Assembly (NCBI GenBank): GCA_021234155.1
Contig: JAJEKV010000052.1
Coordinates: forward strand, 9,441,284 to 9,505,283
Direction: 5' to 3'
DNA from: Isoetes taiwanensis
Lineage: Eukaryota > Streptophyta > Lycopodiopsida > Isoetales > Isoetaceae
Length of the DNA stretch: 64,000 bases
A program made the position numbers and the translations under genes. Positions 39,201 to 59,519 of the stretch are shown in pieces. How positions within the stretch are numbered: the first letter of the stretch is position 1; each line of letters starts with the position of its first letter. The notes under the pieces were generated by a model. It was not told the DNA's origin. It ran no database searches and worked only from the letters and a program-made list of their open reading frames with translations.

Positions 39201-40123
39201 TCACCAGGTCTTCATCCTTCTATCCGACGTGTAGGCTGCAGTGACGGCCAATCTGCTATGCCATCCATATGGGATTGCGAGGTCGAAGATGCTCAAAGTT
39301 ATTGTCTTCTTGACCAGGATGACATTGTCGATGTTTGGAGGCATCTGAGCATGCCTATCAAATTCCGAGAGTGCAATCAGCATGAAGACACTTTCTCCTC
39401 CCCATGGGCTAAACTGGCGGTATATGACCGCTATCCTTCCGTCGATGAGGAGTGGAAGGTAGAACCTGAGGGCTTTGTCATGTCCCCCCTCTGTTGTCTC
39501 TTCTCCGGTTCTGATCCCGACCATGTGTCTACCGGAGTATTCGTCTACCGGTACCGCTATCATTTCTCTGTAGTCGCCAAACATGGACCTGGAAGAGGTC
39601 AACTTAATGCCGCTTCTTTCTAATCTGGCTGGCGCTACTGCAGAGGTGTTGGGCAGGAGCGCGCTTATTGTCTTTCCTCTGATGCCCATCCACTCCTGGA
39701 TGGCTATAAATTTCTCCTCCGAGGGTAGCTCCTGTTGTGTCATCATCTACCGGATGCCAGTGTACGCTTCAATATTCGATGATGACTGGCTAATATAAGT
39801 GTCCGTGCTACAGGCTGCTGGCGTAGAAGGTGCAGAAGCTCGCCCACACTATAGCCTCTATCTCTGCACTCTGGAAGATTCTTTATGTCGTGCAGCGTCA
39901 GGTACTTCTCTCCTTGGATGATGACTGGGGTTAGACTGGTGATGCCTAACCCAAATGGAGGAGCCGTCCTCGTTACTCTCAACCCTTCGTCGATGCCTTG
40001 AAGGTCTTCTTCTGCCTGTTGCCTCTCTTGTATGGGGTCGACGTCGATGAAGGGCGGATTTGGGGTCTGAAAATGGCCCTTATCTTGGGTTAAAGATTTC
40101 CACGTCAGATTCGCCAGGACCAA
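39201..40123 (-). pseudogene. orphan cluster protein, paralogue of the gene split at 43182
   Basis: Two minus-strand frames overlap at 39743: the first holds PVIIQGEKYLTLHDIKNLPE, the second PSEEKFIAIQEW, then RFYLPLLIDGRIAVIYRQFS and PWGGESVFMLIALSEF, ending at TGA 39201. They align in order with the plus-strand gene at 54402-55757 (PILVEGKEYLLLSDILRNPS; PTEEEFQ; RYISRFVNGEIIASARTFSP; KGASLSI). The two are therefore members of one family, inverted relative to each other. A frameshift joins the halves here, so the copy is probably dead. The 5' end is unclear; coding-like fragments continue to about 40530. Function unknown: no domain is recognised. Confidence 0.6.
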
Positions 40124-40732
40124 TCAGGTTTGCGCCTTTTTTACGAAAGTCAGTATTACTTGGCAGGTAGAAGGATGAGCAGGCTTACTTGGCATCCACA
40201 TGGCGTATTTTCATAGGGGATGCCTGCGCTTTCATTGCAACCATTTTAATGGCCCGTATTTTTTCGAGTCGCCACCGCTTCAAAATAATGGTGACTTTGA
40301 CCGCCACTTGTCAGCGTCACCAACTCCCTTGTCAAATTTTGGCGCCAAACTTCTGTACTGTCACTCCGGCGCCTCTACGTGCATCCTCTCCGCCTTCACT
40401 CCTCATCTGCAATCCATGTCTCCTGTAACCCCGTGTTTCTTGCCCCATTTACGTAACTCCCAAGGTCAAGAAGTGGGAGGTTTTGTCTCAATAGGTTCAG
40501 GTGAGTATGTTGCCATCAACGAGGGGCGAGCATAGAGTTAGCGACAAAGGCGATCGACGCGATGCGGACACATTGGATAGGTAGGATAAAAGAGTTCAAG
40601 TTGAATTCTAGCGTCGGAAAGTGGAAAGTATAACAATACGACATGCATATACCCCTTCCGATATGGCCAAAGAGCTAATCTCCACCAAAAATGCTTCCCA
40701 AAATTGCCCGCAAATGGTAACCACCTTAATCG
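40124..40732. other. 5' part of the minus gene or a second decayed gene
   Basis: Minus-strand frames at 40538-40738 (PYRKGYMHVVLLYFPLSDAR) and 40430-40530 look coding-like but cannot be aligned to the paralogue's N-terminus. No function can be proposed. Confidence 0.25.
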
Positions 40733-40803
40733 GATCACACGACGCCGAAGCTAGCCGCCTACTTAATTAAGCGTGAGAGATAGTTTCAAGGCGTCGTGTG
40801 ATC
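40733..40803. terminator. cluster hairpin 1 (GATCACACGACGCC arms)
   Basis: Perfect 14-bp arms 40733-40746 and 40790-40803 with a 43-base loop. Same arm sequence as the hairpins at 42917, 57463 and 59453. Here it lies between the minus gene and the next plus gene. The role as a transcript end or processing signal is inferred from position only. Confidence 0.8.
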
Positions 40804-41111
40804 TCCTTATCTTTTCATTTCTTTTCGTTGACACGCGTTTACAAACAAATTTATTGTGCGTTTTATGTTTATCGACGTCGTGGATGTCATTCCGCCGAAA
40901 GTATTAGTAGTGTACTTGTCGTGGTATCACATAGACATCGGAATTGTCCTTTTCCAAGGTATGGATGCCGTGACCTTTAAGGGGTATAGGCATCTGGTTT
41001 TACGCACATGATTATAACGTAAAGGTCGAAACCGGAGCTTGAGACCGGTTGAATTGCCCCTTTAAGTGAACTTTGTAAGCCACGCACTAATGAGAACAAT
41101 GTAATTGCAAC

Positions 41112-41709
41112 ATGGCTGACGAGGTGCAAGCGGGAATGTCCAAAACGGAGGCGTGAGGATGAGTTTCAAAATCTTCACACCGCTTGAGGTATTTGCTAAC
41201 ATATTCCGGATGGCGCAGAAGTTCGAAAAGATCCAAGACATATACGTGCTTTCTCCCCCTACGCCGATTTTGTGGATGGCTTATTTTTGGTTCCACACAG
41301 GATGTTCGATTCCACGAATCATCCGGTCAACTAACAGATGTCCGCGTAGTTAAGTCCTCCTTTAAGTTCGATACTTTCTTCCAAAACAATATTTATAATG
41401 CTAATTGTCAACTAGAACGAAGGAAAAAACAAAAAGAGAGGTCGCACAACTTTTTTGGGAGCCGCTTTGAGGACCATAACGTATAATCCGGCGCGGTGGA
41501 TATTCGAGTATGGAGAGGGGAGGAAGTCATTTATACAGCCCACCATGGAAAGCGAATGGCCATTATCGAGCTAAGAGTGCTAATGGAGACAGAGGAGATT
41601 GTCGACGACTTCCATTATTTTTATTGATGGCATTAGGGTTGGTTACGTGCAAGAGGGAAATGTAAAGTTTAGTGAGTTCGCGATCAACAAGAAATTGTCT
41701 ATCGCCTAG
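41112..41709 (+). pseudogene. orphan cluster protein, frameshifted
   Basis: An ATG at 41112 opens MADEVQAGMSKTEA. After frame breaks come FKIFTPLEVFANIFRMAQKF, DVRFHESSGQLTDVRVVKSS, then VDIRVWRGEEVIYTAHHGKR with IIELRVLMETEEIVDDF, and finally GIRVGYVQEGNVKFSEFAIN to a TAG at 41707. Protein-like composition continues across four segments that need at least three frame changes, so it is a decayed gene rather than chance. Nothing in it is recognised. A competing minus frame (41087-41296) covers only the first part. It sits between hairpin 1 and the H3-like gene. Confidence 0.45.
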
Positions 41710-41915
41710 CACTTTGAATCTCGGTTTTTATTTGTGTTTTTGTCCCATTTTTTTAGGGTTCCGTATTTTGTCCGATATTTTTTAGGGTTCCGTATAATTA
41801 TTTAAAAACGCTACCATCATATTTTACTTTAACTTCTATTTTTACTATTTATCTCTTGCCGCTTGTCTATTTTTTGTCGTTGTTCAGAGTATAAAGCGCC
41901 ATCCGCCGAGAAGCC

Positions 41916-42783
41916 ATGGCAAGAACTAAGCAAACCGCAAGGATCCATCCGTGGTGTAAGGCCAGGTGATTACATTAGTCCGCCTCCTTCATCTCGAATC
42001 AAGTCTCGATAGAGATTCTCCTCCTCCCACCATGCCTAACGTAAGACCCGGAAAAGAAATCCGCATGATAGACGGCGGGAGAAGCAGCTCCGAAGTAAGT
42101 AGGGAGGTGCACTCCGGTTCGGAGATGGAGGATGGAAATGTGAGAGACCGGTGAGCAGAATATGACGCCGGATTAATTATTGGGCAGCCGCCTCTTCTTG
42201 CTCTTACTGCTCCTCCTGCTCCTACTGTGGATGTGCCAGAACCTTCAAATCAAAGGAGGAGGCCCAACGCCCGAAAGGGAAGGCGACCGTAAATGTGAGG
42301 AGATCGGCCGGAAGAGTCGGGCCGAGGAAACGTACCGCAAATGCTGGGGTGAGGAGACGAGCGGAAGAGTCGGCCGAGCAACAGGCTCCAAATGCTGGGG
42401 TAGGTGAGGGTAGTGGCCGGAAGTGGAAGACGAAGTCTGGCATTAAAGCGCTTCGTGAGATTAAGAAGTATCAGAAGAGCACTGAGATGGTCATTCCGCG
42501 TCTCCCATTTGCCAGGCTCGTGAAAGATGCAAGAGTGTGGTGCGATACATCATACCGCATGTAATTCAAGCAATCGCCTTAAATGCTCTTCAAATGGCTT
42601 CGAAAGCACAGGTGTCGGCCTGTTCGAGGACTCGCAGCCTTGCAAAGAATACATGCCAAGCGGGTGATCATCATGCCCAAGGACATGCGCCTCGTCTTAC
42701 GCATAAGGGATCCCGAGTACTATGGTCAAAATTTTATGGCTGAATACAACAAGAAGAAAGACCCCCCAGAAAAAAGGCCGTGA
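41916..42783 (+). pseudogene. divergent histone H3-like gene with long N-terminal tail
   Basis: The ATG at 41916 gives MARTKQTAR, the universal H3 tail start. About 170 codons of Pro/Ser/Arg-rich linker with frame changes follow (NVRPGKEIRMIDGGRSSSEV; RKRTANAGVRRRAEESAEQQ). Then comes the histone fold: ALREIKKYQKSTEMVIPRLP and FARLVKDARVW (alpha-N/alpha-1, 42448-42545), IQAIALNALQMASKA (alpha-2), VGLFEDSQ, and IHAKRVIIMPKDMRLVLRIR (alpha-3). A 19-residue extension (DPEYYGQNFMAEYNKKKDP...) follows, ending TGA 42781. Core H3 contacts are recognisable but identity to plant H3 is low. It is not a simple CENH3: loop 1 is not lengthened. At least four frameshifts. TATAAA lies at 41890. Homology to H3 is certain; origin is inferred. 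Confidence 0.85.
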
Positions 42784-42916
42784 AGTGCCTTTGTGTTTTT
42801 TTCATATGTATAATATTTCTTAATGTAATGGCTTTATAAGCTTAATCTCTTAGTCCATTTCTTTCTTAGAAGCCTAGCTTCGCACTTTGTATTTTTTTTT
42901 TTAATGTTATACGTGA
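42784..42916. other. 3' flank of the H3-like gene
   Basis: AT-rich, with TATAATATTTC and a long T run before hairpin 2; this fits a 3' untranslated region. Confidence 0.4.
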
Positions 42917-42985
42917 GGATCACACGACGCGCAGCAAGCATTGTGCTTTTTTGTTGCACATAGTAGTCTTCGCGTCGTGTGATCC
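42917..42985. terminator. cluster hairpin 2 (GGATCACACGACGCG arms)
   Basis: Perfect 15-bp arms 42917-42931 and 42971-42985, 39-base loop. It lies 134 bases after the stop of the H3-like gene and 154 before the next start codon, the placement expected for a 3'-end signal. Confidence 0.85.
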
Positions 42986-43013
42986 AACCCTAACCCTAAC
43001 CCTAACCCTAAAA
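42986..43013. repeat. telomere-like (CCCTAA)4 tract
   Basis: Four perfect CCCTAA units directly abut the right arm of hairpin 2. The human-type hexamer is used, not the CCCTAAA common in many plants. It is too short to be a telomere. Confidence 0.9.
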
Positions 43014-43138: not shown

Positions 43139-43182
43139 ATGGATTGTTATGTGAAGTTCCTGGAATGGTATGCATCCGCCCC
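43139..43182 (+). pseudogene. 5' end of an orphan cluster gene split by a retrotransposon
   Basis: The ATG at 43139 opens MDCYVKFLEWYASA, and the frame is interrupted after GCCCC (43178-43182) by the left LTR. It continues in phase after the second GCCCC at 54397-54401, so the insertion can be dated after the gene was still open. The remainder of the gene is described at 54397-55757. Confidence 0.8.
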
Positions 43183-44784
43183 TGTTGGCCGGGTCAACCT
43201 ACCCCAAGCCCGACAGAGTTCTTAGGCAATGGATGACAAAATAATAATACGAATGACAGCAAAAAATATAATTCCGTTAATTACTTACGCCAACACCACC
43301 ACAACTAGGCTCATAGCTTCCGTTATACCCCTTAAGCCTAGCCGCACCGCTTCCTTTTACTCCTTGCATTAATTATTATGTGAGTGCAAACTTGTAATAT
43401 TTATTATCCTTGATTTGTTTTAGCATCACATGGTCTTAGAGTAATGTTCTCCTTGTTATTTTAATTTTATCTTTTTCTTTTATGTATAGGGAAATCAAAA
43501 GGTTTAACTTATTACTTATGAAATTGTTGGAACTTATAAAATTGTTAGGTTTAGTTAAACACTTAGTTAGGTTTTCACGTTGAACATTTATTTAGGGCAA
43601 AAACCTGTTCGAGAGGCAGCGGCCATGCACAAATCCGGCTTCCTCCTCTTCTATCGATTCCACTCCTCACTTTCTCTGCTATGGCCTGATCAAATCGGCC
43701 GATTTCCTCCTTCCTCAACTCGGTTCTTTCTTCTCAGGTTGAGCCTTCACCAGGTAACGGTTTCTGCAGAATTAACAGTTAATTCGTGGGCTCCAAGGTA
43801 AGCAATCGGATCTGGCTTAGGGTATGGCAATACAGATGGAGCAGGCGGCTTCCGGATCCATGGCTGGGAACAAGAGATGGATAGGACGGCGAAAATGGCA
43901 TGGCAGAATCGGCAGTGAATCCAGCAGCAGCAAACGGATATGGCAGATGATCTGGGTTTTTGCAGGCTCTATCTTCCAAGCATGGGCAGTTGTATAGCAA
44001 AGGACCAGCAATTCCGGCTTCTCAGTTCTTCCTGATTTATAATTTATAGCAGAACTACAGAGAAGATTAGAACAGAGCAGCAGCACATATGATTTTCTTT
44101 CTCTTTTATCTCTGAATTTTTATTCATTCCATTTAGATTCTTATTATAACTTAATACTCTTACAGATTCAAGACAAATACAAAAGATGCACAAGTATCAC
44201 AAAGGATTTCCTTCAGGGTAAATCCTTGGGAAAACTTGCTGCCAATACAATCAGACAGAATTTATTTAACTTAGATTTCTTCACAACACTCACACACAAA
44301 AGGGTTATTCATTCACACAAAATAGCATCATCATAAACTAGAAAGGAAGACATCATGCACACGCAATGATGGACCAGAATCATACCAGGACGCTCAGGCA
44401 ATCAGCAGAGAGCAGACTCGAATAGGCACAAAAAAGGTAGTTTTTTCATTCACGTTGAATTTCTCTTATACAATTCCAATAAAATCTGGGCCTTTAAAAA
44501 ATACAATCTTTGCCCTCCATGTGGAAAACTTCCTTAAGCTCCAAGATTTTGACACCTAAGCGATCCTTGATCTTCCATCTCCTCCAATCACATCATTTGT
44601 GCTTTCTCCTTACCATTAAAATTCGAATTTCTAATGGTCTTCAATAATATAAGCACCCAAATCTTCAAAATAACCTCGTAACTATGCACTTTGGTCGATT
44701 TTGAGCCCATACTTCTTCATTGCAGCTTCTCTCCACACTGTTTCACTCAAAAATCAAAATTTCTACTGTGCTGACCGCTCCACA
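43183..44784 (-). repeat. 3' LTR (left copy) of the gypsy element
   Basis: 1602 bp. It matches the right copy almost base for base except for about 75 extra bases near 43840-43925, where the right copy has a deletion. The open frames inside (for example 43580-43801) are duplicated at 53270-53491 only because they lie in LTRs. Confidence 0.95.
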
Positions 44785-44799
44785 TTATCCCCCCTTACT
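44785..44799 (-). other. polypurine tract
   Basis: On the minus strand AGTAAGGGGGGATAA directly precedes the LTR start TGTGGAGC, the position for plus-strand priming. A second copy of the same tract with flanking similarity lies at 46864-46880. Confidence 0.8.
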
Positions 44800-44880
44800 T
44801 GTATTCGACGTCTCGACGAACTTGCTTTAAAAAATCTGCTCAGTATGATAAAAGATTGGACTAGAACTTCTCATCACCAT

Positions 44881-46076
44881 AGCAACACCATTATTAACCG
44901 GGATTAAAAAACCTCGCCCTTTCGGGTTTTCGAGGAAAAACCCTGGTAATAATGATGTCACTATCCTTGTTAGGGTCCTCTCGATCCGCATCAACCTCAT
45001 CCTATTCCGTGCCTATTTTGAACTTGCTGGGATGGAGACAATGGCCAGCAATACGGGAAATGAAAAAACAATGCAGATCGATCCGACGGATCGCGATTCT
45101 CGAGCCAGACGAGCATGCAAGAGTTGCATGCGTTGCCTGCATGCATTGCATGCATTTCGGGCCTCTCATCCGGTTAGGGGATCGCTATTTCTTCCTCGTT
45201 ATTCGCCTTCATTCTCATCATCGCTTTCTCTTAAGCCCGCCATGTTTGACTGTTCTATGCTCTCATGCGGGGAGGGGCTTCCTCTTGCATGGGTTGACCT
45301 TTCGTGGCATTTCCTATCATTCTTGTTTCTCTTCGACTGACCTTTCTGGCGGATCCCTTCACGGCGTTTCTTATCGTTCTCGGTTCTCTTCTACCTTGGC
45401 TGCGTTGACCTTTCTGGCGCATCCCTTCTGGCGTTTCCTATCTTTCGTATCTCTTCCTATCCTTCTCGTCTGAGATACCTCGGCATTCCTCCACTATGGG
45501 GCAATTCTTGAGCCTTCATCTCGGATCGACGGGAAGTTCTCTTCTTCTTTTTTATTTGTTGTGTCATGCAGTGCGTAATTTTTCCGAAATGCGGATCGAT
45601 CCGACGGATCGCGATTCTCGAGCAGGACGAGCATGCAAGAATTACATTACTTGCTGCATGCATTGCATGCATTTGAAACTCTCATCCTAGGTTAGGGGAT
45701 CGCTATTTCTTCCTGCATTAGCCTTGACTTCTCATCGGCGCTTTCTCTTAGCCAGCCCGGTGTTTTGAGGTTATGTTCTATGCTCTCCCTCCCTCCCTCC
45801 CTTAAGTATTTTGTTTATATATATGTTGTTCGCGTGGCACGGCACGCTTTAATCAACCCCGCTTTTCGAGGTTTTTGTTCTTCTCTATTGTGTTTTGTGG
45901 TCTTATGCATGCATGTGGGCTGCTTTAACGACGTTGGTTTCTTTTTGGAGCGTGGGTTTTGGGAAGTTTAGCGGCCGGCGTTGTCTAAAAGCCCACGCCT
46001 AGGGCTTATCGCTAGGGTTTTTCCTCGAAAACCCGAAAGGGCGGGGTTTTTTAATCCCGGCGATAAGCCCTAGGCA
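44881..46076. mobile_element. nested 1.16-kb insertion bounded by two related hairpins
   Basis: A 47-bp sequence (44898-44944, GGGATTAAAAAACC..CGCCC, TTTCGGGTTTTCGAGGAAAA) recurs inverted at 46014-46060 with about one mismatch. Each copy sits in its own hairpin with different outer arms: CATTATTAACC/GGTAATAATG on the left, GCCTAGGGCTTATCG/CGATAAGCCCTAGGC on the right. The interior has no supported gene. It contains a 135-bp direct duplication (45074-45200 and 45590-45720, GATCGATCCGACGGATCGCG...) with nested GCATGC palindromes. No simple target duplication outside. Confidence 0.6.
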
Positions 46077-46900
46077 GGTACACTAGCCAAACATCTATGA
46101 TATATTTTTGTATTTTGGGGTCCAGGTGTTATGACTGGATATTCCCTGTATTTTTGTTTTTTGGGTAGCTTGCGATATGCAGCTACCCACTCTCTACCAT
46201 TGTAATTACACTGCTGGGATGAATAGAAAAGCCCCATCCATGGGCGTTGTTGTGTCATGCGAGTCGCAGCTCGAGAATGGTAAAGAAAACAATGGTCATG
46301 GTTGGTAAGCCAACTAAAAACAGATGGACATGAAATGATGGAAAAAATGATGCTCCTGCAGCGAAAAATAACGTTAGTAGAACATATGGCTGCTAATATG
46401 GTGAAGCTGATTGCAGCACTTTATGATTTGAATGATATGGATGAATGAAAGGCGTATGGTTTGACTAATTACGAAGAACAATCAGGTGAACCTGCCATGG
46501 AACAAAAATTAGTAAAAACATTGCTGCCTGATGGTAAAGCTTACATGACAGACTTTAATGGATTGACATGGAGTGGATGAATGTAATATGAAATGAATTG
46601 ACAAAAATGGAGACAAGCAGGTGAACCTATCATGGAAACCATAAAAGTTAGTAACAAATTGTCACTGGATGCGTTGATTTGGCGCCTTTATGGATTGAAT
46701 GAGGTGTAAGAATGAAAAATGAGATGAATTTGAGTAATACGGAGAGCAAGCAGATGAATAATAAGAAAAATCAAATTCTTTATTTTTATTTTTTATTTAT
46801 TTATTTTTTTTTTCACTTTTTTAATAATTTTTCCCTTATTTAATTTTTCCCTTATTATGCTATTATCCCCCCTTACTTGTATTCATCGCTCTCGATGAAT
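46077..46900. other. non-coding 3' region of the gypsy element
   Basis: AT-rich. Two diverged segments beginning GCAGGTGAACCT..CATGGAA or similar (about 46485 and 46617) form an old duplication. The second polypurine-tract copy is at 46864-46880. Confidence 0.45.
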
Positions 46901-46989
46901 TACATTTCATCTGGAAGTTTCTTGAAAGTCCTTGGTGCATAATATGGCTTAAGATCTGGCACCATTAATTTTGGGAGCTCATTCCCCTG

Positions 46990-47960
46990 TAAATCTTGCA
47001 ATGACACGTAACCGTTAGGAAAAATTTTAAGGACTACATATGGTCCCCTTTAGTTATCTCATTCTCAACTTTCCGTGTTTCTTCCAATGTTTTGAATCAT
47101 ATAACAATACCAAATCATTTTCCACAAATTCTTTATTTTTATTATGAGCATCATACCATGTTTTACGCTTGCCTTTGAGTGCTTCTCTAGCCATGTATGC
47201 ATGAAGACGTACTTCATCTAGCTTCTCTAATTCTTGCAAGCGTGCCTTAAGACTACCATCTTCATCAAGCTTTTCCCCTTACCACTTTCACTGTAATGAT
47301 GGAATTTCTATTTCAATAGGTAAGATGGCCTCTTGGCCATACACTAACATGAAGGGAGTAGATTTCGGGTAACTTTGTAAGCTATTCTATAGGCCCATAA
47401 TGCATCTAACAATCTCTTATCCCAATCAGTCCTATTAGCGCTACAAATCTTCGCCATTATATTACATAGAGTTTTATTGGTTCTTTCAACCTGGCTATTA
47501 GCTTGAGGATGATAGGGTGTACTCTTTCTATGGGCTATGGCGTGGCGTTCTCAAACTCAAGGTAGCGACCACATCATTGATAAAGTGTGAACCTCTATCA
47601 CTAACCAACTCTAAGGGACACCCAAACCTAGTAATGATGTTTTCATATAAGAAAGTTGCTACACTAGCCGCATTAGCATTTCTCAATGCTTTTGCCTCAA
47701 CCCATTTGGTAACATAATCCGTGCACACCAATATATACTCACAACGGGTTTGAGCTGAAGGAGGATTAATGGGACCTACAAAAATCTATCCCCCATTTTT
47801 CAAAAGGTAATATGGGAACTATCGGGTTCGAGGCATAGAATCTCGCCTAGTAGGCCGAATTCCAATCTTTGGCAAAGGTCACAATGTTTTACCCGGATTG
47901 TTACATCATGGTACAAACTAGGCCACCAATAACCAAAGATTTAACACTTTCTTAGCAAAG
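46990..47960 (-). pseudogene. gypsy integrase
   Basis: The zinc-binding part (about 47960-47800, HCDLCQR) and catalytic core (47731-47528, VCTDYVTKWVEAKALRNANA, then RFGCPLELVSDRGSHFINDV) are followed by YHPQAN, DWDKRLLDALWAYR and a C-terminal segment (47239-47054, WYDAHNKNKEFVENDLVLLY). First and second catalytic Asp are visible. Several stops and shifts. Confidence 0.88.
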
Positions 47961-48399
47961 ACATCCGCAAAGAAAATGACCTCCAAAGAGGGGAATCATG
48001 GCAAGCTCTAATGACCTTTTGCACTTCATGAGGGAATATGCATCTACGCTAGATATCATCTTTACCTACCCTATACAAGGTTCCGCCAAAGAAAGTGAAA
48101 GGTTTACATTTTTGAATTAATCTTTTCCTTTCTATGGCTCTCATATCATCCGGAAATTCACCAAAGGAAAGGAATTCGCCACATCAACATACCATTCGAA
48201 CTGCAAATACCATAAACAAGTTAGCATCGTGCAAGTCATCTTTTACCCCTTTGTCGTTAGAATCACTCAATAATCGCGATAAATGGTCAAAAGTGCATGA
48301 GATTTTCCCGTTTTACAATTATATTTAAATTGAAACTCTTGCAACATGAGTAACCATCTAGTTATTCTTCCCGCTCGCAAGGTTTTAAAATTAAATATC

Positions 48400-49700
48400 T
48401 CAATGCTTGGTGGTCAACAAAAAATACAAATTCTTTTCCCAATAAATAGTGGCTTAAACTTTATAATTGAATAAATCATGCCCAATCCTTCCCTTTCTGT
48501 TGTTGAATAATTCTTTTCTCGCATTAGACAATTGACGACTAGCATAATAAACCGATGATCCCACCCATCTTGTTGTGGTTGTGACAAAATACTTCCTATT
48601 GCATATCCCAAGAGTCTACATGGACATGAAATTCCCTTTCCCAATTAGGAAAACTAAGTATGGGTGCGCTTATTAGAGCTTCTTTTAAACTTGTAAATGC
48701 TTTTTGACATTCTTGTGTCCATCGATATTCCTTCCCCTTTAAGGAGTGCGCTTAATGGTAAAGCCTTATTAGCATAATATCTTATGAATCTTCGATGATA
48801 CCCTATATGCCCAAGAAATGCTTGTAATTGCTTAATGTTAGTAGGTGGCTCCAATTCAAATAACTTTAGTCTTATCGGTCAATTGCAATACCCTTGCCCG
48901 AAATGATCCTACCCAACAACGTCCCCATGGGTAACTCCAAACAAACATTTCATAGGGTTTAGAGATATACCATATTCTCGACATTTCATAAAGCATAATC
49001 TGAAGCTCCCATGTTCTTGCCCGGTACTAAAAACACGTAAATCATCAAGAAACACTTCCATAAACTCTCTTAGATAATCTTTAAATGCACCCAAAACTAC
49101 CCTTTGGAAAGTGGCAGAGCATTACACAACCCAAATGGCATAACCTTATACATGTAGCACCCCCATTCCGTGACAAATGTGGTTTTTCCCCCATCTTCCT
49201 TGGCAATACTCACCCCGTTGTACCCACTCGAACCCGGCAAAGAAAAGAATAATACTCATGGCCAAAGAACCGAATCAATAACGTTATCGCTGAAAGGAAC
49301 AGAAACCCATCCTTAATGGTGGCAAAAGATTTAATTTTCTATAGTCCACACACACCCTTAATTTTTTTAGACTTCTTTGGAACTATAACTATTGGGGACA
49401 ACCACTCACTAGTTTCCACCGGTTCAATAAACTTAGCTTTAATTAAATTATCCAGCTCTTCCCTTACCACCTTTGAGTAATGAGGGTTCATCCCAGAGGG
49501 TCGCTGCCTTATAGCTTTTGTGTTAGCTTCAAGTACAATTCTATGCACACTTAACTCGGGTGATATACCCTTCAGATCCTCATACGTCCATGCAAAGACA
49601 TCCTTAAACTCCATGAGGAGATCCTTATATTCTTTATGTTCTTCACCAAGATTAAGTTTTCCCAATCGCACCATCTTGGGTTCTCCCGGCACCTAAATTC
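48400..49700 (-). pseudogene. gypsy reverse transcriptase and RNase H
   Basis: The RT N-terminal block (49692-49339; ELSVHRIVLEANTKAIRQRP, PHYSKVVREELDNLIKAKFI) precedes a broken central part. The active site is FMEVFLDDLRVFS (49094-48909) with both Asp present, then thumb PTNIKQLQAFLGHIGYHRRF (48854-48654). RNase H (48644-48414) has REKNYSTTEREGLGMIYSII. Frameshifts lie between all blocks. Confidence 0.92.
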
Positions 49701-49844
49701 AACTCATCATAAGTGGGACGGGTTAGCATTTGTTGGACTTCCTTGGATGCACAATGGGAGGGGGTTTCTTTTAGCTTGGGTTCTCCCTCCTCAAATTTTG
49801 AGAAGTACTCGTGATATCTCTCCTCTTCTTCTTCCTTTATAGTT

Positions 49845-50530
49845 TCATTTACTTCTTCCACATTTACAAAGAAAAACATTTACACAATTCATCCATTCCT
49901 CTATAGCCACAGATGAAGTATCATCCCTCATTGTTAGTTTTTCATAACCCTCTTGCTCTACATAAACTTGGTCTACTTCTATTTCATTATTATTTTCGTT
50001 ACTATCTACATCATCATCATTATTATCAACATGCATATCTTCAATTGAGGAACTAGTATCACTATCATTGTCATCCTTATTACCGCATTGAACATGGACC
50101 CTTATCTTGATTAAATTATTCCCATCTCCAATTTGCAAATAGCCTTGTAGACCAATCATGTTTAGCTGATGCTTGCATTAACCATGGCCTTCCTAACAAT
50201 AATGGATAAGTGCATGCACTATTTGGCATCTTTAAAATGACATAATCCACAAAGAAAGTCACACCAAAGAATTAAGGTTTTAATCCCAAAACTAATCCCA
50301 AAGGTGTTACCTTTCGCTGATCAGCCATCCTCACTATAAAACTTACAGGCATAGGCTCGCAAATCTAGTTTCCTCCACATACTCTCGTGCATAATGTTCA
50401 CCGAGCCCCCATCAATAGTGCAATTTCAGATCACTTTCCACTTATTTCCACATCCGCACAAGGTGAACTCATATCCGCAATTATAGGCCATGCAGAATTG
50501 ACAACTACTTTTTATGACTTTTAATGCGCC
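49845..50530 (-). pseudogene. gypsy protease region and acidic linker
   Basis: About 50460-50160 contains a protease-like segment ending YPLLLGRPWLMQASAKHDW, the typical Tat/Athila phrase after the aspartic protease. The active-site triad region reads DGGS rather than D(T/S)G. The acidic linker follows (50159-49845, DDNDSDTSSSIEDMHVDNND). Stops interrupt it. Confidence 0.7.
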
Positions 50531-50644
50531 AAGACCACCTTTTACGACAACTAGGAGCGATTTGCAATAATTGTTTGAATGTTAAGGAAGGACTTTTATT
50601 TTCCAAATCCTTCAAAATATCATAGGGTTGTTCTTCCTTTAAAT

Positions 50645-52202
50645 TCAAAACTCTAGTGTACTTCTTACGCTTTTACCCTTATCCGTATTTTCTTTATTAG
50701 ACTCGAAATCATTTAAAATTTCTTTAACTTCCATTGGATGGGGGAGTTGGTCAATATCTTCAAACAACGCTTCGGGTTCCTCAACCTCACTAACTTCATT
50801 ATCCCCTTCATTTATCACATGTGCTTCATTTTCTTCTTCTCTGAGTCTTCTTGCCCCACGAGTCTCCACAACATAACTTGGGATACTAACTTCGGCCCAC
50901 ATACACAACTCGACTATCTACCACCACTTCCTTTCCCTTATTATTAGAAGATGGTTCCCCTCTTGCCTTTAATTTGTGAGGACAATTTTCTTGGCTATGT
51001 AGGCCTTGGGTTTGGCGATCCCCCGTGATATGGGTTGATATCCAACTTGTCTCATAGGATTAGGACAATGAGGTGCTATATGACCTATCTCTCCACATCT
51101 ATAACATTGGGGTGGAGGCCTCTTCATAACTCTAGGACGATTTTGCCTTTCCTCCACGTTGGTAGCATAAGCTGCAGGATAAAAGGGTTGTGCTTGATAA
51201 GTAGGGGTAGGGGTATTAGGGTTAGCTTCCATTCTCCAAAAATAGCATCTTTCTCAGAGGGTGATTAGTTTTACCACACTTTTGCAAGGAATTGGTATGT
51301 TTGTAGGAGTAGGACACTCGATGGTAAATGGCCATAACCCTTGCATTTCACACACCACATGTTAGTCCTCTCATTGTTTACTTGTGGCTTATTACTCACA
51401 CCTCTTACCCAATTCAATTGCATCTCGCTCATTTTATTAGTAAGAGTCTCTACCACCTTTTCTAACTTTTTATCAACCCCTTCCTCTATGGTTGGCTTTG
51501 TTATTGGGGCACCACTCCCAATGTGGCTAGCCTACTATAATCTATGGTACCCAAGTCACTAGGCGTGACACCCAACATTCCCAAGTGAGGGCTTGCTAAA
51601 GGGGGTTCTAGAGGGTTCTTGAGGGCTACCCCACCCAACACGTAAGGCATAATCAACCCGGATTATAATGGCGGGCCATAGTTAGCTTGGCTTGTTCCCA
51701 AATTAGTCGCAATCTTGATGGCACTTTCTAAATCTGGCCGGGTTTGACCCTTAGTGAAAAAGCCCAAATCCGTGGTAACCCATTTGTAAAGTATCTTACT
51801 TGATCCTCAACTGTAGGGGTGGGCTCTCTTTTTGGCTACCAACCGCCTAAACCTCAAAGACATAGCTCTGCAGACTTTCATTAGGCGTGGCGTAAATATG
51901 TTAGCTCATCATTTATTCTTTCTTGAAGGCCAATAGGCCTAAAGGCCTTTAAAAATGCTTTTCTAAGGTCATCCCAAGTCAAAAAGGGGGTAATACTCCT
52001 AGAGGTTCTATACCATTCCATTGCCCCATCCTCTAAGGTTGCTCCAAACAAACCTAAGTCTTTCAAAGATTACCATCTTCTTGATTGGCCTCACTAATAG
52101 TCGAAATGATTGAATGTGAGAATCAGCCTCCCCCCCTTTTAAAGGTGAAAAGGTTGGGTATTTCATTTTAGAAGTTTTAGTTGCCATGGGATTAAGAATC
52201 AA
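50645..52202 (-). pseudogene. gypsy gag
   Basis: The N-terminal capsid part (52202-51881) has KYPTFSPLKGGEADSHIQSF and LEDGAMEWYRTSRSITPFLT, then WDDLRKAFLKAFRP, the retrotransposon gag signature. A knuckle QCYRCGEIGHIAPHCP lies in 51232-50969 and a Pro-rich segment precedes it. A second Cys-pair remnant (WCVKCKGYGHL) lies at 51370-51330. An acidic frame follows at 50908-50645. Stops between the blocks. Confidence 0.88.
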
Positions 52203-52850
52203 GTATTAGAAGGAGTTAAATAACCGGTTTCCTCTTCACTACTTTCCCTGTGGCTAGAGGGTATGGTGCTACCGCTACTAAACCCTTGCTCTACTAATGA
52301 TTCTTTCTTCTTCCAAGACTTGCTCTTTTAATTCCCTTCTTTTTGTTCCCTAAACTCTAGTCTAGCACTACGCTCACCTCTTTGCTTCTCGATGCTCTTC
52401 TTTCTCCTTTCAGCATCCAGGCCCCAATTCATGCAAAAACTTTAATTACTGGAACAAATAACTTTTTTTTTTTTTTTAATTACGTAGAGGTGGATGCCCC
52501 CTCTTGGCTTACAAATTCTTCAAATGAAGATTGCCTAAGTCTTCTTACAAATTCTTCGGTTCCCAACCATCCAGGAATTGGTCGTGGTTCCTCCCATGGT
52601 CCACCGTCTCCCCAACCACTATTAGGTTGAATTCTCTTACGAGGATTATTTAAAATAAGTACTTTGTGCTTAGTGATGGGTAAATGTGGCCAATTTTCCA
52701 TTCCTGCAAGCCATTATACATCCAACAAAAATTTAATAAATTTTATTTTATTTTATTTATTTTTATTCTCTTTTTTTTTTTTCGAAAATATAACAAAAAA
52801 TTCAAAAGTTGTACTATTATTCGTCAACACGATTACCCTTTAGTTAAGTT

Positions 52851-52867
52851 TCTCGGAATGCCCCCCA
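52851..52867 (-). other. putative primer-binding site of the gypsy element
   Basis: On the minus strand TGGGGGGCATTCCGAGA lies five bases after the end of the 5' LTR (right copy). It has the leading TGG expected for pairing to a tRNA CCA end. I cannot name the tRNA. Confidence 0.45.
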
Positions 52868-52872
52868 CTAAA

Positions 52873-54396
52873 TGTTGGCCGGGTCAACCTACCCCAAGCC
52901 CGACAGAGTTCTTAGGCAATGGATGACAAAATAATAATACGAATGACAGCAAAAAATATAATTCCGTTAATTACTTACGCCAACACCACCACAACTAGGC
53001 TCATAGCTTCCGTTATACCCCTTAAGCCTAGCCGCACCGCTTCCTTTTACTCCTTGCATTAATTATTATGTGAGTGCAAACTTGTAATATTTATTATCCT
53101 TGATTTGTTTTAGCATCACATGGTCTTAGAGTAATGTTCTCCTTGTTATTTTAATTTTATCTTTTTCTTTTATGTATAGGGAAATCAAAAGGTTTAACTT
53201 ATTACTTATGAAATTGTTGGAACTTATAAAATTGTTAGGTTTAGTTAAACACTTAGTTAGGTTTTCACGTTGAACATTTATTTAGGGCAAAAACCTGTTC
53301 GAGAGGCAGCGGCCATGCACAAATCCAGCTTCCTCCTCTTCTATCGATTCCACTCCTCACTTTCTCTGCTATGGCCTGATCAAATCGGCCGATTTCCTCC
53401 TTCCTCAACTCGGTTCTTTCTTCTCAGGTTGAGCCTTCACCAGGTAACGGTTTCTGCAGAATTAACAGCTAATTCTTGGGCTCCAAGGTAAGCAATCAGA
53501 TCTGGCTTAGGGTATGGCAATACAGATGGAGCAGCGGCTATTGGGCTATGGCAGAAGATCTGGGTTTTTGCAGGCTATATCTTCCTAGCATGGGCAGTTG
53601 TATGGCAAAGGACCAGCAATTCCGGCTTCTCAGTTCTTCCTGATTTATAATTTATAGCAGAACTACAGAGAAGATTAGAACAGAGCAGCAGCACATTTAA
53701 CATGATTTTCTTTCTCTTTTATCTCTGAATTTTTATTCATTCCATTTAGATTCTTGTTACAGCTTAGACTCTTACAGATTCAAGACAAATACAAAAGATG
53801 CACAAGTATCACAAAGGATTTCCTTCAGGGTAAATCCTTGGGAAAACTTGCTGCCAATACAATCAGGCAGAATTTATTTAACTTAGATTTCTTCACAACA
53901 CTCACACACAAAAGGGTTATTCATTCACACAAAATAGCATCATCATAAACTAGAAAGGAAGACATCATGCACACGCAATGATGGACCAGAATCATACCAG
54001 GACGCTCAGGCAATCAGCAGAGAGCAGACTCGAATAGGCACAAAAAAGGTAGTTTTTTCATTCACGTTGAATTTCTCTTATACAATTCCAATAAAATCTG
54101 GGCCTTTAAAAAATACAATCTTTGCCCTCCATGTGGAAAACTTCCTTAAGCTCCAAGATTTTGACACCTAAGCGATCCTTGATCTTCCATCTCCTCCAAT
54201 CACATCATTTGTGCTTTCTCCTTACCATTAAAATTCGAATTTCTAATGGTCTTCAATAATATAAGCACCCAAATCTTCAAAATAACCTCGTAACTATGCA
54301 CTTTGGTCGATTTTGAGCCCATACTTCTTCATTGCAGCTTCTCTCCACACTGTTTCACTCAAAAATCAAAATTTCTACTGTGCTGACCGCTCCACA
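52873..54396 (-). repeat. 5' LTR (right copy) of the gypsy element
   Basis: 1524 bp, TG...CA, adjoining the target duplication copy 54397-54401. On the minus strand it is the 5' LTR and would drive element transcription leftward. Confidence 0.95.
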
Positions 54397-55757
54397 GCCC
54401 CTCATGACAACAAGGAAGTTGCGCCGACTGCGATTTATCCGTTCTATTGCAAGGAGTTGGACATCATGGCAAACAGTAGCGAGCTTGGATGCTATCGCGA
54501 GGTTGCCTTAGCTTTCACCCGGACCGCTTGGTCTCAGCGCACGTCCTTTGCAGATGTCCCTGGCTCGTGGATTCCAAAACCAGCTCTAGAGGAGGCGGCT
54601 TCCCATTTGCAAACAGGGAAGATGTTTTTCAAGAATGCTGCGCAACGGGCTCCTCCTGGCTGCGTCCTTGTGCTTAAGAAGGTATCTTATTTCTCTTTGC
54701 CGTTTGCATTTGCTAGTTATTGCATTCTCGCCGCCAAACCGAAGATACACCGGAAACAATGAAATCTTTAAGCCAAGGGGGGTCATTTATGTGTGATGAT
54801 GCTGACTATGACGAGAAATGGAGATACATCTACAAGAAGAAGAGCAAGAATGTAGGAGTTTTAGCTTCACGACGACCGGCCTTGGGTGAACCAGAGGAGG
54901 GAGATGATTCTCAAGGTGATGAGGATGAGGATGAGGATGAAAAGAAGTTGTCTGACATAATGCCAATTTTAGTGGAAGGCAAAGAATACCTATTGCTAAG
55001 TGATATACTGAGGAACCCGTCTTTGTTACGAATGTGTGCTAGGGAAGACGAGCTTATCAGTACCTTGGCCGAATGGGTAAACTTAGGCCTAGATTTTGAA
55101 GAGGATTTGGACAAAGAGATGTTTGAAGTGTCTAATTATACCGCAAATGCTATAAAGCTTAAAGAAGCCTATGAGAGGCTGGAGTCTCGATTTGCTCAAG
55201 ATGAGGCGAATCTACCAACGGAAGAAGAATTCCAAATGCCTCCGCAAAAGTCGCCAACAGATCTGCTGTGTTTGGCAGGCCCGTCACCAATCAATGCAAA
55301 GATAAGCCTCGTAGATGAGGATAAATGTGAAGAAGATAAGCTTGAGGGTTCTTATTTGTGGGTATTAGATGATTTTTCTTGCCGACATGCACGCGGGGGA
55401 CAGGAAAGATTGAAGGACTCTACATTGTTACGATATATCTCAAGATTCGTTAATGGGGAGATAATCGCTTCAGCCAGAACTTTCAGTCCAAAAGGTGCGA
55501 GTTTGTCTATTACATCCGTGCATTATGCATGTTCGGGAACCATTCCCAATTGGCATCAAACACCGAAAGGGTGATAGCAATTCGGGGATGTTGTGCTACA
55601 ATATTTTGACGACCAAAAAGGGTCTCATGGGAGAGCAATATGTTAAATTTTTAGTCTGCTGGCTTGACTCACCCAAGGTTGGAAGCTGGGGTCGATAACA
55701 TGGAAGTCATTGCTGCGGGGGGATTGAAAGAGCATGAAATTGACGACGAAGCTTGAA
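54397..55757 (+). pseudogene. orphan cluster protein, main part of the split gene
   Basis: Continues the frame begun at 43139. The first block runs to LKK at 54679 (MANSSELGCYREVALAFTRT; IPKPALEEAASHLQ). A 35-base GT...AG stretch (54680-54714) then separates it from the next open frame, 54715-55574, which includes an acidic run, PILVEGKEYLLLSDILRNPS, PTEEEFQMPPQKSP and RYISRFVNGEIIASARTFSP. Further coding-like sequence in other frames reaches about 55757 (NSGMLCYNILTTKKGLMGEQ; EVIAAGGLKEHEIDDEA). It is homologous to the minus gene at 39201-40123. No known domain is recognised. The 35-base gap is either a tiny intron or a frameshifting indel. Confidence 0.65.
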
Positions 55758-55857: not shown

Positions 55858-56001
55858 TTCACATCACGCCAAAATACATCACCATTTTCACATCATATCT
55901 AGGTTTTCGTCGTGTGATATTTATCTCAAGAAATGAAATATTATTGGAAAAAACAATTAATTAATTTATTCCTCACACGACGCGAGAAGCAACTCGTGTG
56001 A
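55858..56001. terminator. cluster hairpins 3 and 4, back to back
   Basis: Hairpin 3: an imperfect left arm TCACATCACGCC...(from 55858) and GTTTTCGTCGTGTGAT (55903-55918). Hairpin 4: TCACACGA (55973-55980) and TCGTGTGA (55994-56001) with CGCGAGAAGCAAC between. They follow the split gene's end and precede the first tandem unit's TATA box. Confidence 0.6.
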
Positions 56002-56008
56002 CTCATGT

Positions 56009-56016
56009 TATAAATA
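56009..56016 (+). promoter_or_regulatory. TATA box of tandem unit 1
   Basis: TATAAATAGAAGACC, with the same wording at 56921 before unit 2. It lies 104 bases before the ATG. Confidence 0.75.
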
Positions 56017-56112
56017 GAAGACCGATGTCCACTCGACCTCCTCGACGCCTTCCGCCTTCTCAAGCCATCTTCTACTTCCGCTTCCGGCTTCCGCCTTCCA
56101 CCTTCTCGCTCG

Positions 56113-56506
56113 ATGGCATCATCATCTTCCTCTAGCAAGCGACCACGCCAAGATAGCACTCCCCAGCCAGAGCCGCCAGTGGACATCACCCCTTGCAAAG
56201 TGGTGATGAAGAGATTCAAGGAGATCCATGATGAAAACAACCGTCTCGTCGCCGAGAATATGGAGGTGGTCGACAGATTAGCCTTCACGAGGGAGCTGCT
56301 GCACGAGTGAGACATTGAGCTCGCGGAAACATTCGCCATGTACCAAGAGGCGACGAGCCGCAGGGCCGGCGGTTAAGAAACCGCCACAAGATTTCGCAGC
56401 CTTAGAAGATATGGAGAAGAAGCTCCGAAAGTCATGGAGGATGAGAACGCTGACTTACGGCTTTGCCGGACATGAAAATTAGCTAGAGGATCATGAAGAT
56501 CCCTAG
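56113..56506 (+). pseudogene. coiled-coil paralogue 1 of the tandem array
   Basis: MASSSSSSKRPRQ start, then MKRFKEIHDENNRLVAENME and RELLHE, with a premature TGA at 56308. Homology to unit 2 continues past it (DIELAETFAMYQEATSRR ... LEDHEDP, TAG 56504) with frame changes. The protein is a short, charged heptad-like coil with a basic KRPR patch that may be a nuclear localisation signal. Function unknown. Confidence 0.6.
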
Positions 56507-56606
56507 CCGTTGTATCTATCTATTTTTTGCTTCAAAGAAAAGTTTTCTCTATTTTTTGCTTCTATCTATCCTCTTGTTCCAATGTATGTTCTGTTTTATT
56601 AAAATA

Positions 56607-56671
56607 TCACACGACGCGAAATGCCTTGCTTGCAATTAGGTAGCAATCAATGGATTTCGCTGGCCGTGTGA
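56607..56671. terminator. cluster hairpin 5
   Basis: TCACACGACGCGAAAT (56607-56622) against ATTTCGCTGGCCGTGTGA (56654-56671), a few mismatches. It follows unit 1 and a T/A-rich stretch with TTTTATTAAAA. The loop GCCTTGCTTGCAATTAGGTA is shared with hairpin 6. Confidence 0.78.
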
Positions 56672-56784
56672 TCTCCATGCCGCTCTATTTTGCTTCAATG
56701 AGAAGTTCTATCTTTAGTTATGTATCAAGAAAATTACTTATGTATAGATTGTATCACCGAAATTATCAATAAAAATTATCACAC

Positions 56785-56880: not shown

Positions 56881-56920
56881 CATCCTTCGGTCGTGACTCA
56901 AGCTACTACGAAATCCCTGT

Positions 56921-56928
56921 TATAAATA
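56921..56928 (+). promoter_or_regulatory. TATA box of tandem unit 2
   Basis: TATAAATAGAAGACC, 99 bases before the ATG at 57020. The leader following it is similar to unit 1's (CTTCGACCTCC, CTTCCGCC repeats). Confidence 0.75.
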
Positions 56929-57019
56929 GAAGACCTTCTATCTTGCCTTCGACCTCCGATCCTCTTCCGCCCCGCCTTCCGCCATCTTCTCCGCCTTCCG
57001 CCTTCCGCCTTCTCCTCCG

Positions 57020-57378
57020 ATGGCGGTATCTTCATCCTCCTCAATTTAATCGCCCCAGAGCTGCCCGCGGACATCACCCTTGCTGTGATGATGAAGAGAT
57101 TCAAGGAAGTTCACGACGAAAACAGCCGTCTCGTCGCCGAGAAGATGGAGGCGGTGGACATGTTAGAATTCACGAGGGGGCTGCTGCATGAGCGAGACCT
57201 TGAGCTCGCGGCAACATTAACCAGGTACCGAGAGGCCAATAGCCGTAGGGTCAAGGCAGTTTTAACTGCACACAATATTTCGCAGGCGCTAGAAGATATG
57301 GAGAAGAAGCTTCGAGCTGCTGCGGAGGATGAGAACGCAGCTTTACGGCTTCAGCTACAGGATCATGAAGATCCCTAG
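57020..57378 (+). pseudogene. coiled-coil paralogue 2 of the tandem array
   Basis: The ATG at 57020 reads MAVSSSSSI and then stops. An ATG at 57088 in another frame opens a 96-codon frame: MMKRFKEVHDENSRLVAEKM, RDLELAATLTRYREANSRRV, ISQALEDMEKKLRAAAEDEN, ending LQDHEDP at 57378. It is the best-kept copy and predicts one long amphipathic helix. If translated from 57088 it could still give a product. Confidence 0.6.
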
Positions 57379-57462
57379 CCATTGTATATATATATTTTGT
57401 TTCAAAGAAAAATTTGCTCTATTTCTTGCTTCTATATGTTCTCTTGTTTTGTTTTATTAAAA

Positions 57463-57529
57463 GATCACACGACGCGAAATGCCATGCTTGCAATTAGGTA
57501 GCAATCAATGGATTTCGCGTCGTATGATC
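57463..57529. terminator. cluster hairpin 6
   Basis: GATCACACGACGCGAAAT (57463-57480) against ATTTCGCGTCGTATGATC (57512-57529): 18-bp arms with one mismatch. It lies 84 bases after the unit 2 stop, preceded by TTTTATTAAA. Confidence 0.85.
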
Positions 57530-57893
57530 TCCACAACGTACACCTCGTTGTATGTATAAATTCCTAATTTATTAATGGAAAAGTATATGTAACACAAATA
57601 TCTAGCTAGATTATGTGATAACTTGCAGGTAAATGCGAATTTGCATGTGGATGACAACGTCTATTCACATACGTGGCATGTGGATGACAACGTCATGCCA
57701 AGGACGTGGCATGCGCTGCCACAATAACACTGTCTTTTGTACGGCCTGCATACAGTACGGCTAGGATATGACGGATCCCATGATGCGAACATAGGCTACC
57801 GTTGCCTAATTGCATGCTATAATTTCGCCTCGTAGGATTATTACACAACTTTATACCGTAGATTCCAACGTATCTCTAGTTTCTATATAAAAC
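57530..57893. other. spacer between units 2 and 3
   Basis: A short direct repeat (GGCATGTGGATGACAACGTC at 57673 and GCATGTGGATGACAACGTCT at 57643). No gene seen. Confidence 0.45.
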
Positions 57894-57901: not shown

Positions 57902-57981
57902 CCTTTGTCTTCTCCTATCCGCCATCTCCTGTTCTACCACATCCGCCCTCAGCCATCTGTCCTGTTCTCCCATCACTTTCA

Positions 57982-58380
57982 ATGGCCTCCAGCTCCAGTT
58001 CCATCCCCCCCGGATCTTGTCTCAAGTTCTCGTCAAGGAAATTCGTAACATCTGTGGCCGAAGCGAGGAACGGATCCGCCTTCTAAAAGAAAAGAATGAT
58101 GAAGACGTCGCCAAGCTGGTTGCGGCAAGGGACAAGGCCGCCTTCTATAGGGAGGTGATTTTAGTGCGCGACAATCAGCGGGCCGCGAATTGCGCGCCAC
58201 GAGATATAACCTCCAAGAGAGGCTTAGGGCCGCAATCGGCTGAGAGGCTACCCGAGCTCAACTCGATGAGCGGGAAGATAAGGTTGCGGAATATGAGAAC
58301 GTGGTTGCAGAAGGCGTGCAATCATGTTGGAGGAGCAAAAAAATTATCACCGCCTCCGTGAAGAGCTTGCCCGGCGATCA
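57982..58380 (+). pseudogene. coiled-coil paralogue 3 of the tandem array
   Basis: The start MASSSSSIPP is followed by a frame change into VLVKEIRNICGRSEERIRLL, KEKNDEDVAKLVAARDKAAF and YREVILVRDNQRA. A last block MLEEQKNYHRLREELARRS ends at TAG 58379 in another frame. Charge pattern and position match units 1 and 2; sequence similarity is weaker. Three frames are used, so it is decayed. Confidence 0.55.
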
Positions 58381-58529
58381 TAGGCATCGGGCTCCTCCTA
58401 GAGGGGCCCGCTTTTTAATGTTTGTAATGGTTTTATTTCTCAATGGGAAAAGTTTTTGACAAATGTGCCGAATATTACGCTTCCTATTTTTAATTTTCAA
58501 TATCCGTGGTAGAGAGAATGATAAGACAT

Positions 58530-58594
58530 CATCACACGGGCCAAAACCCTTCATAGGGTTTTAAAGCTCGTGGTGCGATTTCGCGTGGTGTGAT
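58530..58594. terminator. cluster hairpin 7
   Basis: ATCACACGGG.. against ..GCGTGGTGTGAT, weaker than the others, with an inner palindrome AAAACCCT-TCAT-AGGGTTTT. It follows unit 3. Confidence 0.6.
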
Positions 58595-58735
58595 ACAAAG
58601 CAGTAGTTAGAATAGTTATTAATGTGTTCCAAATGACAAGCACCATTAATGTGTTCTAGCGGACAACCGACGAATCCGCCGACACGTCGCATGCAAAAAT
58701 CCGTATCGTGTTTAATATGTTCAAGCGCTAATATG

Positions 58736-58742
58736 TATAAAT
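58736..58742 (+). promoter_or_regulatory. TATA box of tandem unit 4
   Basis: TATAAAT, 93 bases before the ATG at 58829. Confidence 0.6.
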
Positions 58743-58828
58743 TGAGGTCCTTGCATTGTGCTCCTTCCGCCGTTAGAGTCTTTTGCTCCTCACTTCTATA
58801 ATCTTAACGCCCCTCCCATTTGTCATCT

Positions 58829-59270
58829 ATGGCCTCCACATCCTCAACCGTGATAAGGGAAAACGCAGAAGAGGATAGAACTCCCTTCCGACATATTGTT
58901 GGGTGTTCTAATGAAGAGGTTGAAGGAGCAAGATGATCTTCTAAAGGAAAACGCCGCTACAATTCAGCAGAAAAGAAGAAGAGAATGAATTCAACCTTCT
59001 CATGCTTCAGAGCCGAGAGGCAAATCAGCGTTGAATAGAAGGTCGGACAGATGACATGCCCCAACAACCGCACCGAGGTGGTTATGACGACAACGAGGTT
59101 GCTAATTCAGTGCGTAAGAACATGTTGTGCTATTGGGACAGAGAGCGGACATGTACAAAGAGATGGTGGACAGATTGGAGGAACGCTTGGATAGGGTGAT
59201 TGCTCGCTTGAGGAGAAGAGATGAAGACAAAGACGAGGACCGGAGCTGATGATGATGATGAAGATAATGA
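58829..59270 (+). pseudogene. coiled-coil paralogue 4 of the tandem array
   Basis: MASTSSTVIRENAEEDRTP, then in another frame MKRLKEQDDLLKENAATIQQ (compare MKRFKEIHDENNRLVAEN in unit 1), and finally DMYKEMVDRLEERLDRVIAR plus an acidic end. Several stops. It has the same family layout as units 1-3. Confidence 0.55.
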
Positions 59271-59381
59271 AGAAGAGCTCGCAGACCGAGCAACAATGAG
59301 TCGTTGTATTTTGTTTTTAATGTAACATCTTTCACAACTTTAATCAAAAGTAACCTTTTTTTATTATTATCTTGTAAAGCT

Positions 59382-59519
59382 TCACATGACGCAAAGCCAC
59401 ATAAATGCAAGCAATAGCGAACTCCACTGTTCGCACCGTATGATACAAATAAGATCACACGACGCCAAGCTACAGCCAGTGCAAACAAGGTTGGAGGCAA
59501 GTACTTGGCGTCCGTGTGA
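59382..59519. terminator. cluster hairpins 8 and 9
   Basis: Hairpin 8 (59382-59443): TCACATGACGC against GCACCGTATGA, imperfect. Hairpin 9 (59453-59519): GATCACACGACGCCAAG against CTTGGCGTCCGTGTGA, one mismatch. They end the cluster on the right; no cluster-like gene is seen beyond. Confidence 0.75.

Follow-up and report, generated by a model that had tools for sequence, protein, structure and literature searches.

The question raised by a 64,000-nucleotide stretch of the genome of the lycophyte Isoetes taiwanensis (the window, part of contig C1059) is what kind of entity has left in it a compact cluster of small genes that are separated by hairpins and include a divergent histone H3. An earlier note, made from the sequence of this stretch, took 39201..59519 as the cluster and proposed a decayed endogenous large DNA virus or another self-contained element. 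On the basis of the present analysis, we consider the cluster to be a 3'-truncated, decayed copy of a ~13.5-kb Isoetes DNA transposon, here named family A, which carries its own H3 gene (probability about 0.82).

Copies, boundaries and insertion of the element

Ten further copies of the element were retrieved, which align with each other and with the window copy. Five of the ten were full length (13,313-13,834 bp) and ended, within different flanks, in a 32-bp terminal inverted repeat (TIR), CATTAGGGCGGATTTGGGGTCTGAAAATGGCC, and its reverse complement, both ends beginning with CATTAG; the ends of copies c91 and c84 were slightly altered. Genome-wide counts cover the assembly of 1,658,258,908 bases in 1110 contigs. 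The 32-mer was found with at most three mismatches at 1705 places (848+857) and its reversed control at none, and among 100 TIR places listed at least 15 pairs lay 13.2-13.8 kb apart. The hairpin arm TCACACGACGC occurred 3165 times in the assembly, compared with 123 for a reversed control. The TIRs, a transposase-like gene and the high copy number bear out the second suggestion of the earlier note, a self-contained element.

The interval 39201..59519 proved not to be one unit, as three different things had been merged in it: a relic of a homologue of the element's cargo gene g4 (39204-40046), the TIR-bounded DNA element (40047-61569) and an 11.2-kb Ty3/gypsy insertion (43183-54396). The element starts inside the reading frame of the supposed first gene of the cluster (39201-40123), most of which lies outside the element; 39201-40046 is the g4-homologue relic, in which 39204-39746 on the minus strand is 30% identical to g4 (E = 3e-15). 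The region 43183-54396, likewise counted as part of the cluster, is the retrotransposon that parts the two arm-bearing blocks, which are halves of one element. Its long terminal repeats (LTRs; 43183-44784 and 52873-54396) showed 1.18% mismatches and 4 indels, and its target duplication GCCCC was found at 43178-43182 and 54397-54401. At the other side, the element runs past the supposed end at 59519 to 61569 and includes the transposase-like gene. The window copy matches copy c133 (13,834 bp) from position 5 to position 10,641, and the missing right end could not be found in the 10.4 kb past 61569 (including 8 kb beyond the window).

We also analyzed how the element inserts. No target duplication of 3 bp or more was observed at any of 21 junctions examined (10 and 7 from two junction sets, 4 from the retrieved copies); the flanks matched by two bases at four junctions (1.4 expected) and by one base at six (5.4 expected). 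At the L063 junction, a gypsy copy in L065 that lacks the interruption aligned over 119 nucleotides without gaps (87% identity), at the L055 junction the protein-level match continued over 36 residues (61% identity), and the junction of copy c35a sits in an H3 frame that continues across the insertion. These checkable cases are few and point to insertion without gain or loss of target bases. Four full-length copies compared in pairs diverged by 6.5-9.1% and by 23-29 indels per kb. Among up to 11 copies, codon positions showed no clear bias (16 segments, of which that of small gene 3 had one copy only and was uninformative), and indels were mostly not multiples of three; the copies decayed neutrally after their spread.

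Coding content, hairpins and related stretches

The transposase-like gene lies on the minus strand at the truncated end. When its C-terminal part was read through one stop, all 15 PDB matches at E<=5 were RAG1 (best E = 0.025), and the match covers the motif around the last catalytic glutamate of RAG1. A less decayed homologue was identified on contig C35 (L067:8109 to L068:1459; 34-57% identity over seven pieces, E = 3e-26 and 5e-25), in which IKLDEM, HICTLH and YGSLGIWNTQGMEKSHKQAK are retained. Both genes have H(4)H before the last Glu (YLHIFWAH...GMEKSHK in the window, YIHILHAH...GMEKSHK on C35), an H(3-4)H spacing being a criterion for the CMCT group of transposases (PMC12730594). C(2)C between the second Asp and the last Glu was not seen; the aligned pieces show HICTLH, and in such broken frames other positions are possible. 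In the stretch between the C35 relatives, 2891-5207 of L067 holds inserted open reading frames (ORFs) of 354 and 437 residues that by eye are hAT-like transposases.

The divergent H3, the hairpin family and the TATA boxes described in the earlier note are real. The H3 relic matched Pfam Histone above the curated cut-off (E = 1.4e-9), and its tail begins with MARTKQ in all 11 copies and with MARTKQTAR in eight. The arm TCACACGACGC occurs nine times exactly in the window (0.01 expected from shuffling) and 13 times with at most one mismatch (0.29 expected), confined to 40.7-43.0 and 55.9-59.5 kb. Nine stretches were folded; the z-scores of seven were -7.3 at 57458-57534, -6.8 at 42912-42990, -6.4 at 40728-40808, -4.8 at 59450-59525, -3.8 at 58528-58600, -3.3 at 55970-56006 and -3.0 at 56602-56680, and two stretches were weak or degraded (-2.0 at 55900-55990 and -1.5 at 59378-59448). 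The TATA sequence TATAAATAGAAGACC stands at 56009 and 56921; the five full copies each have it, with at most three substitutions, at three corresponding positions. In all five, hairpins, TATA sites and a CCCTAA tract occupy constant element positions, and two have an extra arm pair at 11.65-12.0 kb. The outer stems of the hairpins are alike; the inner stems differ in sequence, yet in the strong hairpins they still pair, a pattern consistent with selection on the stems before the copies spread. The location of the hairpins at or close to the ends of genes on both strands suggests candidate 3'-end signals or candidate binding sites for an element protein.

Insertion sites touched relatives of the element in 4 of the 11 cases with flanks read (the window and copies c35a, c84 and c17). 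Copy c35a, on contig C35, sits inside a 438-residue ORF (L015 2940-4253) whose frame is open until the inserted element; a novel N-terminal region of ~315 residues, with no Pfam match above cut-off, is followed by an H3 core in the last ~110 residues (Pfam E = 5e-40; PDB H3.3 E = 7e-50). Downstream, past the inserted copy, a g4 homologue was found (E = 1.8e-6). A g3-like gene seemed by eye to be present in this stretch, but BLAST gave no match. Elsewhere on C35, the transposase is followed downstream, after ~0.8 kb, by another H3-like gene (33% and E = 3e-9 in a tblastn comparison with the fusion H3; Pfam 0.0049, below cut-off), with tandem paralogues beyond it (41%, E = 1.6e-35), and C35 also carries ten TTCGCACCGTGGCCACGGTGCGAA-like palindromes, which stand at the ends of genes in groups with an internal spacing of 56-57 bp. 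The flank of c84 contains a further divergent H3 (Pfam E = 5e-12). In that of c17, palindromes AAATGGCGC..GCGCCATTT recur at intervals of mostly 54-59 bp, and one ORF has a domain in common with the C35 stretch (37%, E = 4e-12). Neither a convincing inverted repeat between L015:1-3100 and L068:6301-8500 nor a copy of the family A repeat was found at the ends of the C35 relatives; the H3-fusion stretch (B) and the transposase stretch (C) may thus be one element or two. In the fusion the core is near-canonical and the tail replaced, and in family A the tail is kept, which suggests that the tail is the varied part. In the window itself, 19584-19986 holds a palindrome array (TTCTCGACTCGCGAGTCGAGAA, ~59-65 bp spacing) whose layout resembles that of the C35 palindromes; no homologous protein was found beside it.

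Proposed mechanism and alternative explanations

In the transposon that we propose, a pair of 32-bp inverted repeats beginning with CATTAG encloses about ten compact genes. The minus-strand gene would encode a DDE-type transposase that cuts the element out at these repeats and joins it to the target without stagger, which would leave no target duplication. The genes would be expressed singly from TATA promoters, with the hairpins probably serving as 3'-end or protein-binding signals, and the H3 variant would most likely enter nucleosomes and so help to oppose or evade silencing by the host, or be active in the transposition complex.

Several observations weigh against this reading. The RAG1 resemblance is sub-threshold (E = 0.012-0.025) and the Pfam RAG1 match is below cut-off; the C35 homologue, though better preserved, gave no RAG1 match at E<=1 (L068:929-1459). 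The second catalytic Asp could not be identified, and the AlphaFold model of the transposase part was too poor for comparison (predicted local distance difference test, pLDDT, 39.4). The comparison of copies did not indicate that the cargo proteins had been under selection, and the two-base flank matches at 4 of 21 junctions might reflect a 2-bp duplication in some of the copies. In addition, the published assembly was built from Nanopore reads with racon and pilon polishing (PMC8566536), and part of the small indels may be errors; against this worry, only 4 indels separate the LTRs of the gypsy pair in the same assembly.

An endogenous DNA virus, either NCLDV-like (nucleocytoplasmic large DNA virus) or a linear virus of some new kind with inverted terminal repeats, which integrated by end joining and was later amplified, could explain the compact genes of both strands, the hairpins found where genes end, insertion without target duplication and the histone gene, histones being encoded by some NCLDVs. 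The polyadenylation of mimivirus mRNAs at hairpins (PMC4402537) offers a parallel. We nevertheless regard such an origin as very improbable, because the ends are exact and without loss at checkable sites and hundreds of copies share the same length. A precisely bounded repeat of ~13.5 kb does not support the decayed large virus that had been supposed, and no relative was found in five scans of viral contigs (one for the paired-arm pattern, four for proteins; PHROGs gave weak matches only). The remark that capsid, polymerase and packaging genes were not visible holds for the window and copy ORFs, in which Pfam scans detected no major capsid, DNA polymerase B, packaging ATPase or VLTF3 of Nucleocytoviricota. 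Polinton/Maverick elements share with family A the compact multi-gene layout and inverted repeats; their 6-bp target duplication was absent from the 21 junctions, and element ORFs gave no Pfam match to a protein-primed DNA polymerase or retroviral-type integrase, with decay limiting the sensitivity. Helitrons do not fit either, as a 32-bp TIR is present and Pfam scans gave no Rep or helicase match. Nor is a segmentally duplicated cluster of ordinary plant genes a realistic explanation. Its TATA boxes are of plant type and the CCCTAA tract resembles a telo box, whereas the terminal inverted repeats, the 1705 ends and the dispersed insertions into gypsy elements, with their junctions, contradict it.

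It is harder to set aside a single capture of a host H3 by an ordinary EnSpm/CACTA-like transposon, with the C35 relatives as coincidental neighbours, a possibility that we consider unlikely. The 5'-CA ends and H(4)H before the last Glu would be as in EnSpm and Transib (PMC12730594), and a hAT element of Pseudocercospora has taken histone H3 to hundreds of copies (PMC6710886). However, the 3-bp duplication was absent at all 21 junctions, the ends read CATTAG and not CACTA, and H3-like genes with very different tails occur at three further places beside family A copies or the related transposase, in one case with 0.8 kb between the gene and the transposase upstream. With the CMCT group as a whole (EnSpm/CACTA, Mirage, Chapaev, Transib/RAG1, Plavaka), family A has in common the 5'-CA ends, the H(4)H spacing and a last-Glu motif with a sub-threshold resemblance to RAG1; it differs in the lack of target duplication, in CATTAG instead of CACTA and in CTLH in place of C(2)C. 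Base counts at 21 family A insertion sites did not show the AAA|TTT target preference characteristic of Spy. Spy elements (PHIS group) resemble family A in having no target site duplication, whereas they have a simple structure without cargo and are reported only from three invertebrate phyla (PMC11304231). Pfam scans of family A gave no match to a PHIS transposase.

Our best reading is that family A belongs to a new lineage of large DNA transposons in which insertion leaves no target duplication and an H3 variant is a recurrent passenger. A transposon with an H3 has been described before: the short-TIR hAT of Pseudocercospora fijiensis has spread an H3-like sequence to hundreds of copies, which have been inactivated with the exception of the original, and in this resembles family A, whereas it has 8-bp target duplications, a hAT transposase, a length of 9.5-9.9 kb and a canonical host H3 (PMC6710886). 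Family A differs from it by the absence of duplication, another transposase type, about ten genes, hairpins and divergent H3s in more than one lineage. Silencing countermeasures are likewise known from transposons (VANC, SET, TET/JBP); fungal TET/JBP DNA transposons and Vandal elements with VANC also carry a chromatin-related passenger gene, which is an enzyme or an anti-silencing factor and not, as in family A, a histone (PMC12730594). As far as our searches of the open-access literature show, what is new is the combination of a RAG1-like motif with the lack of a target duplication, the palindrome-punctuated gene array and the occurrence of altered H3s in at least two related settings. More tentatively, and at somewhat less than even odds, Isoetes may harbour a new superfamily of several divergent complex DNA transposon families with blunt insertion and family-specific palindromes or hairpins, in which H3 variants (intact-tail, tail-replaced and highly divergent) would be a standing component that packages or marks element chromatin to escape silencing or assembles the transposition complex. 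A transposon repeatedly carrying H3, including a form whose regulatory tail is replaced by a new domain, would provide a direct test of whether a parasite can rewrite its own chromatin, and it would add to the plant DNA transposons a lineage without target duplication on insertion. In plant genomes, a compact gene cluster that is punctuated by hairpins and contains histones is not necessarily a giant-virus insertion.

Other features of the window

The features of the window are collected in Table 1. No Pfam match above cut-off was obtained for the transposase-like gene, g0, g1, g3, g4 or the small genes, and the AlphaFold model of g4 was too poor for comparison (pLDDT 32.2).

Table 1. Coordinates of the element, its genes and its signals in the window
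Feature	Position	Strand	Evidence or remark
Left TIR, first bases degraded	40047..40078	+	Intact form 1705 genome-wide
ORF g0, 111 aa, gene status uncertain	40200..40535	+	
Hairpin 1, 14-bp perfect arms	40733..40803	+	
g1, broken frames, gene status uncertain	41112..41709	+	
Divergent H3 relic: MARTKQTAR tail, long basic linker, histone core, C-terminal extension	41916..42783	+	Pfam
Hairpin 2, 18-bp arms 94% complementary	42917..42985	+	
Telomere-like CCCTAA tract, element part	42985..43010	+	5/5 full copies
g3, first part, cut by gypsy insertion	43139..43182	+	
Ty3/gypsy LTR retrotransposon in g3, foreign to element	43183..54396	-	LTRs and target duplication
g3, second part	54397..54759	+	
g4, broken frame	54760..55750	+	Homologues in left flank and on contig C35
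Inverted arms, weak hairpin, end of g4	55905..55985	+	
TATA box, small gene 1	56009..56023	+	
Small coiled-coil-like gene 1, broken	56113..56505	+	
Hairpin	56605..56676	+	Folding
TATA box, small gene 2	56921..56935	+	
Small coiled-coil-like gene 2, duplicate of gene 1	57021..57378	+	80% DNA identity (56167-56677 vs 57055-57533); translated pieces E = 2e-18
Hairpin, 30-bp arms 83% complementary	57462..57530	+	
Small gene 3, broken, without demonstrated kinship to 1 and 2	57984..58410	+	Translated pieces without match to other small genes
Hairpin, degraded arms	58530..58598	+	
Small gene 4, broken, related to gene 2	58830..59250	+	Translated pieces E = 8e-6
Degraded hairpin	59380..59446	+	
Hairpin between convergent small gene 4 and transposase-like gene	59452..59522	+	Folding
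DDE transposase-like gene, broken frames, N-terminus lost with right end	59707..61569	-	RAG1 motif match; C35 homologue
Right breakpoint of window element	61569		~3.2 kb of element missing

Some minor repeats were also observed. Inside the gypsy element, a 47-bp inverted repeat (98%) surrounds a 172-bp direct repeat at 44898-46060 and resembles a nested small element. The segment 11674-11886 matches a ~230-bp insertion in copy c133 and is probably a short mobile repeat. Finally, a palindrome array (AAATTGGGCGGCCGCCCAATTT, 60-62 bp spacing) occupies 61690-62010, beginning right after the truncated element.

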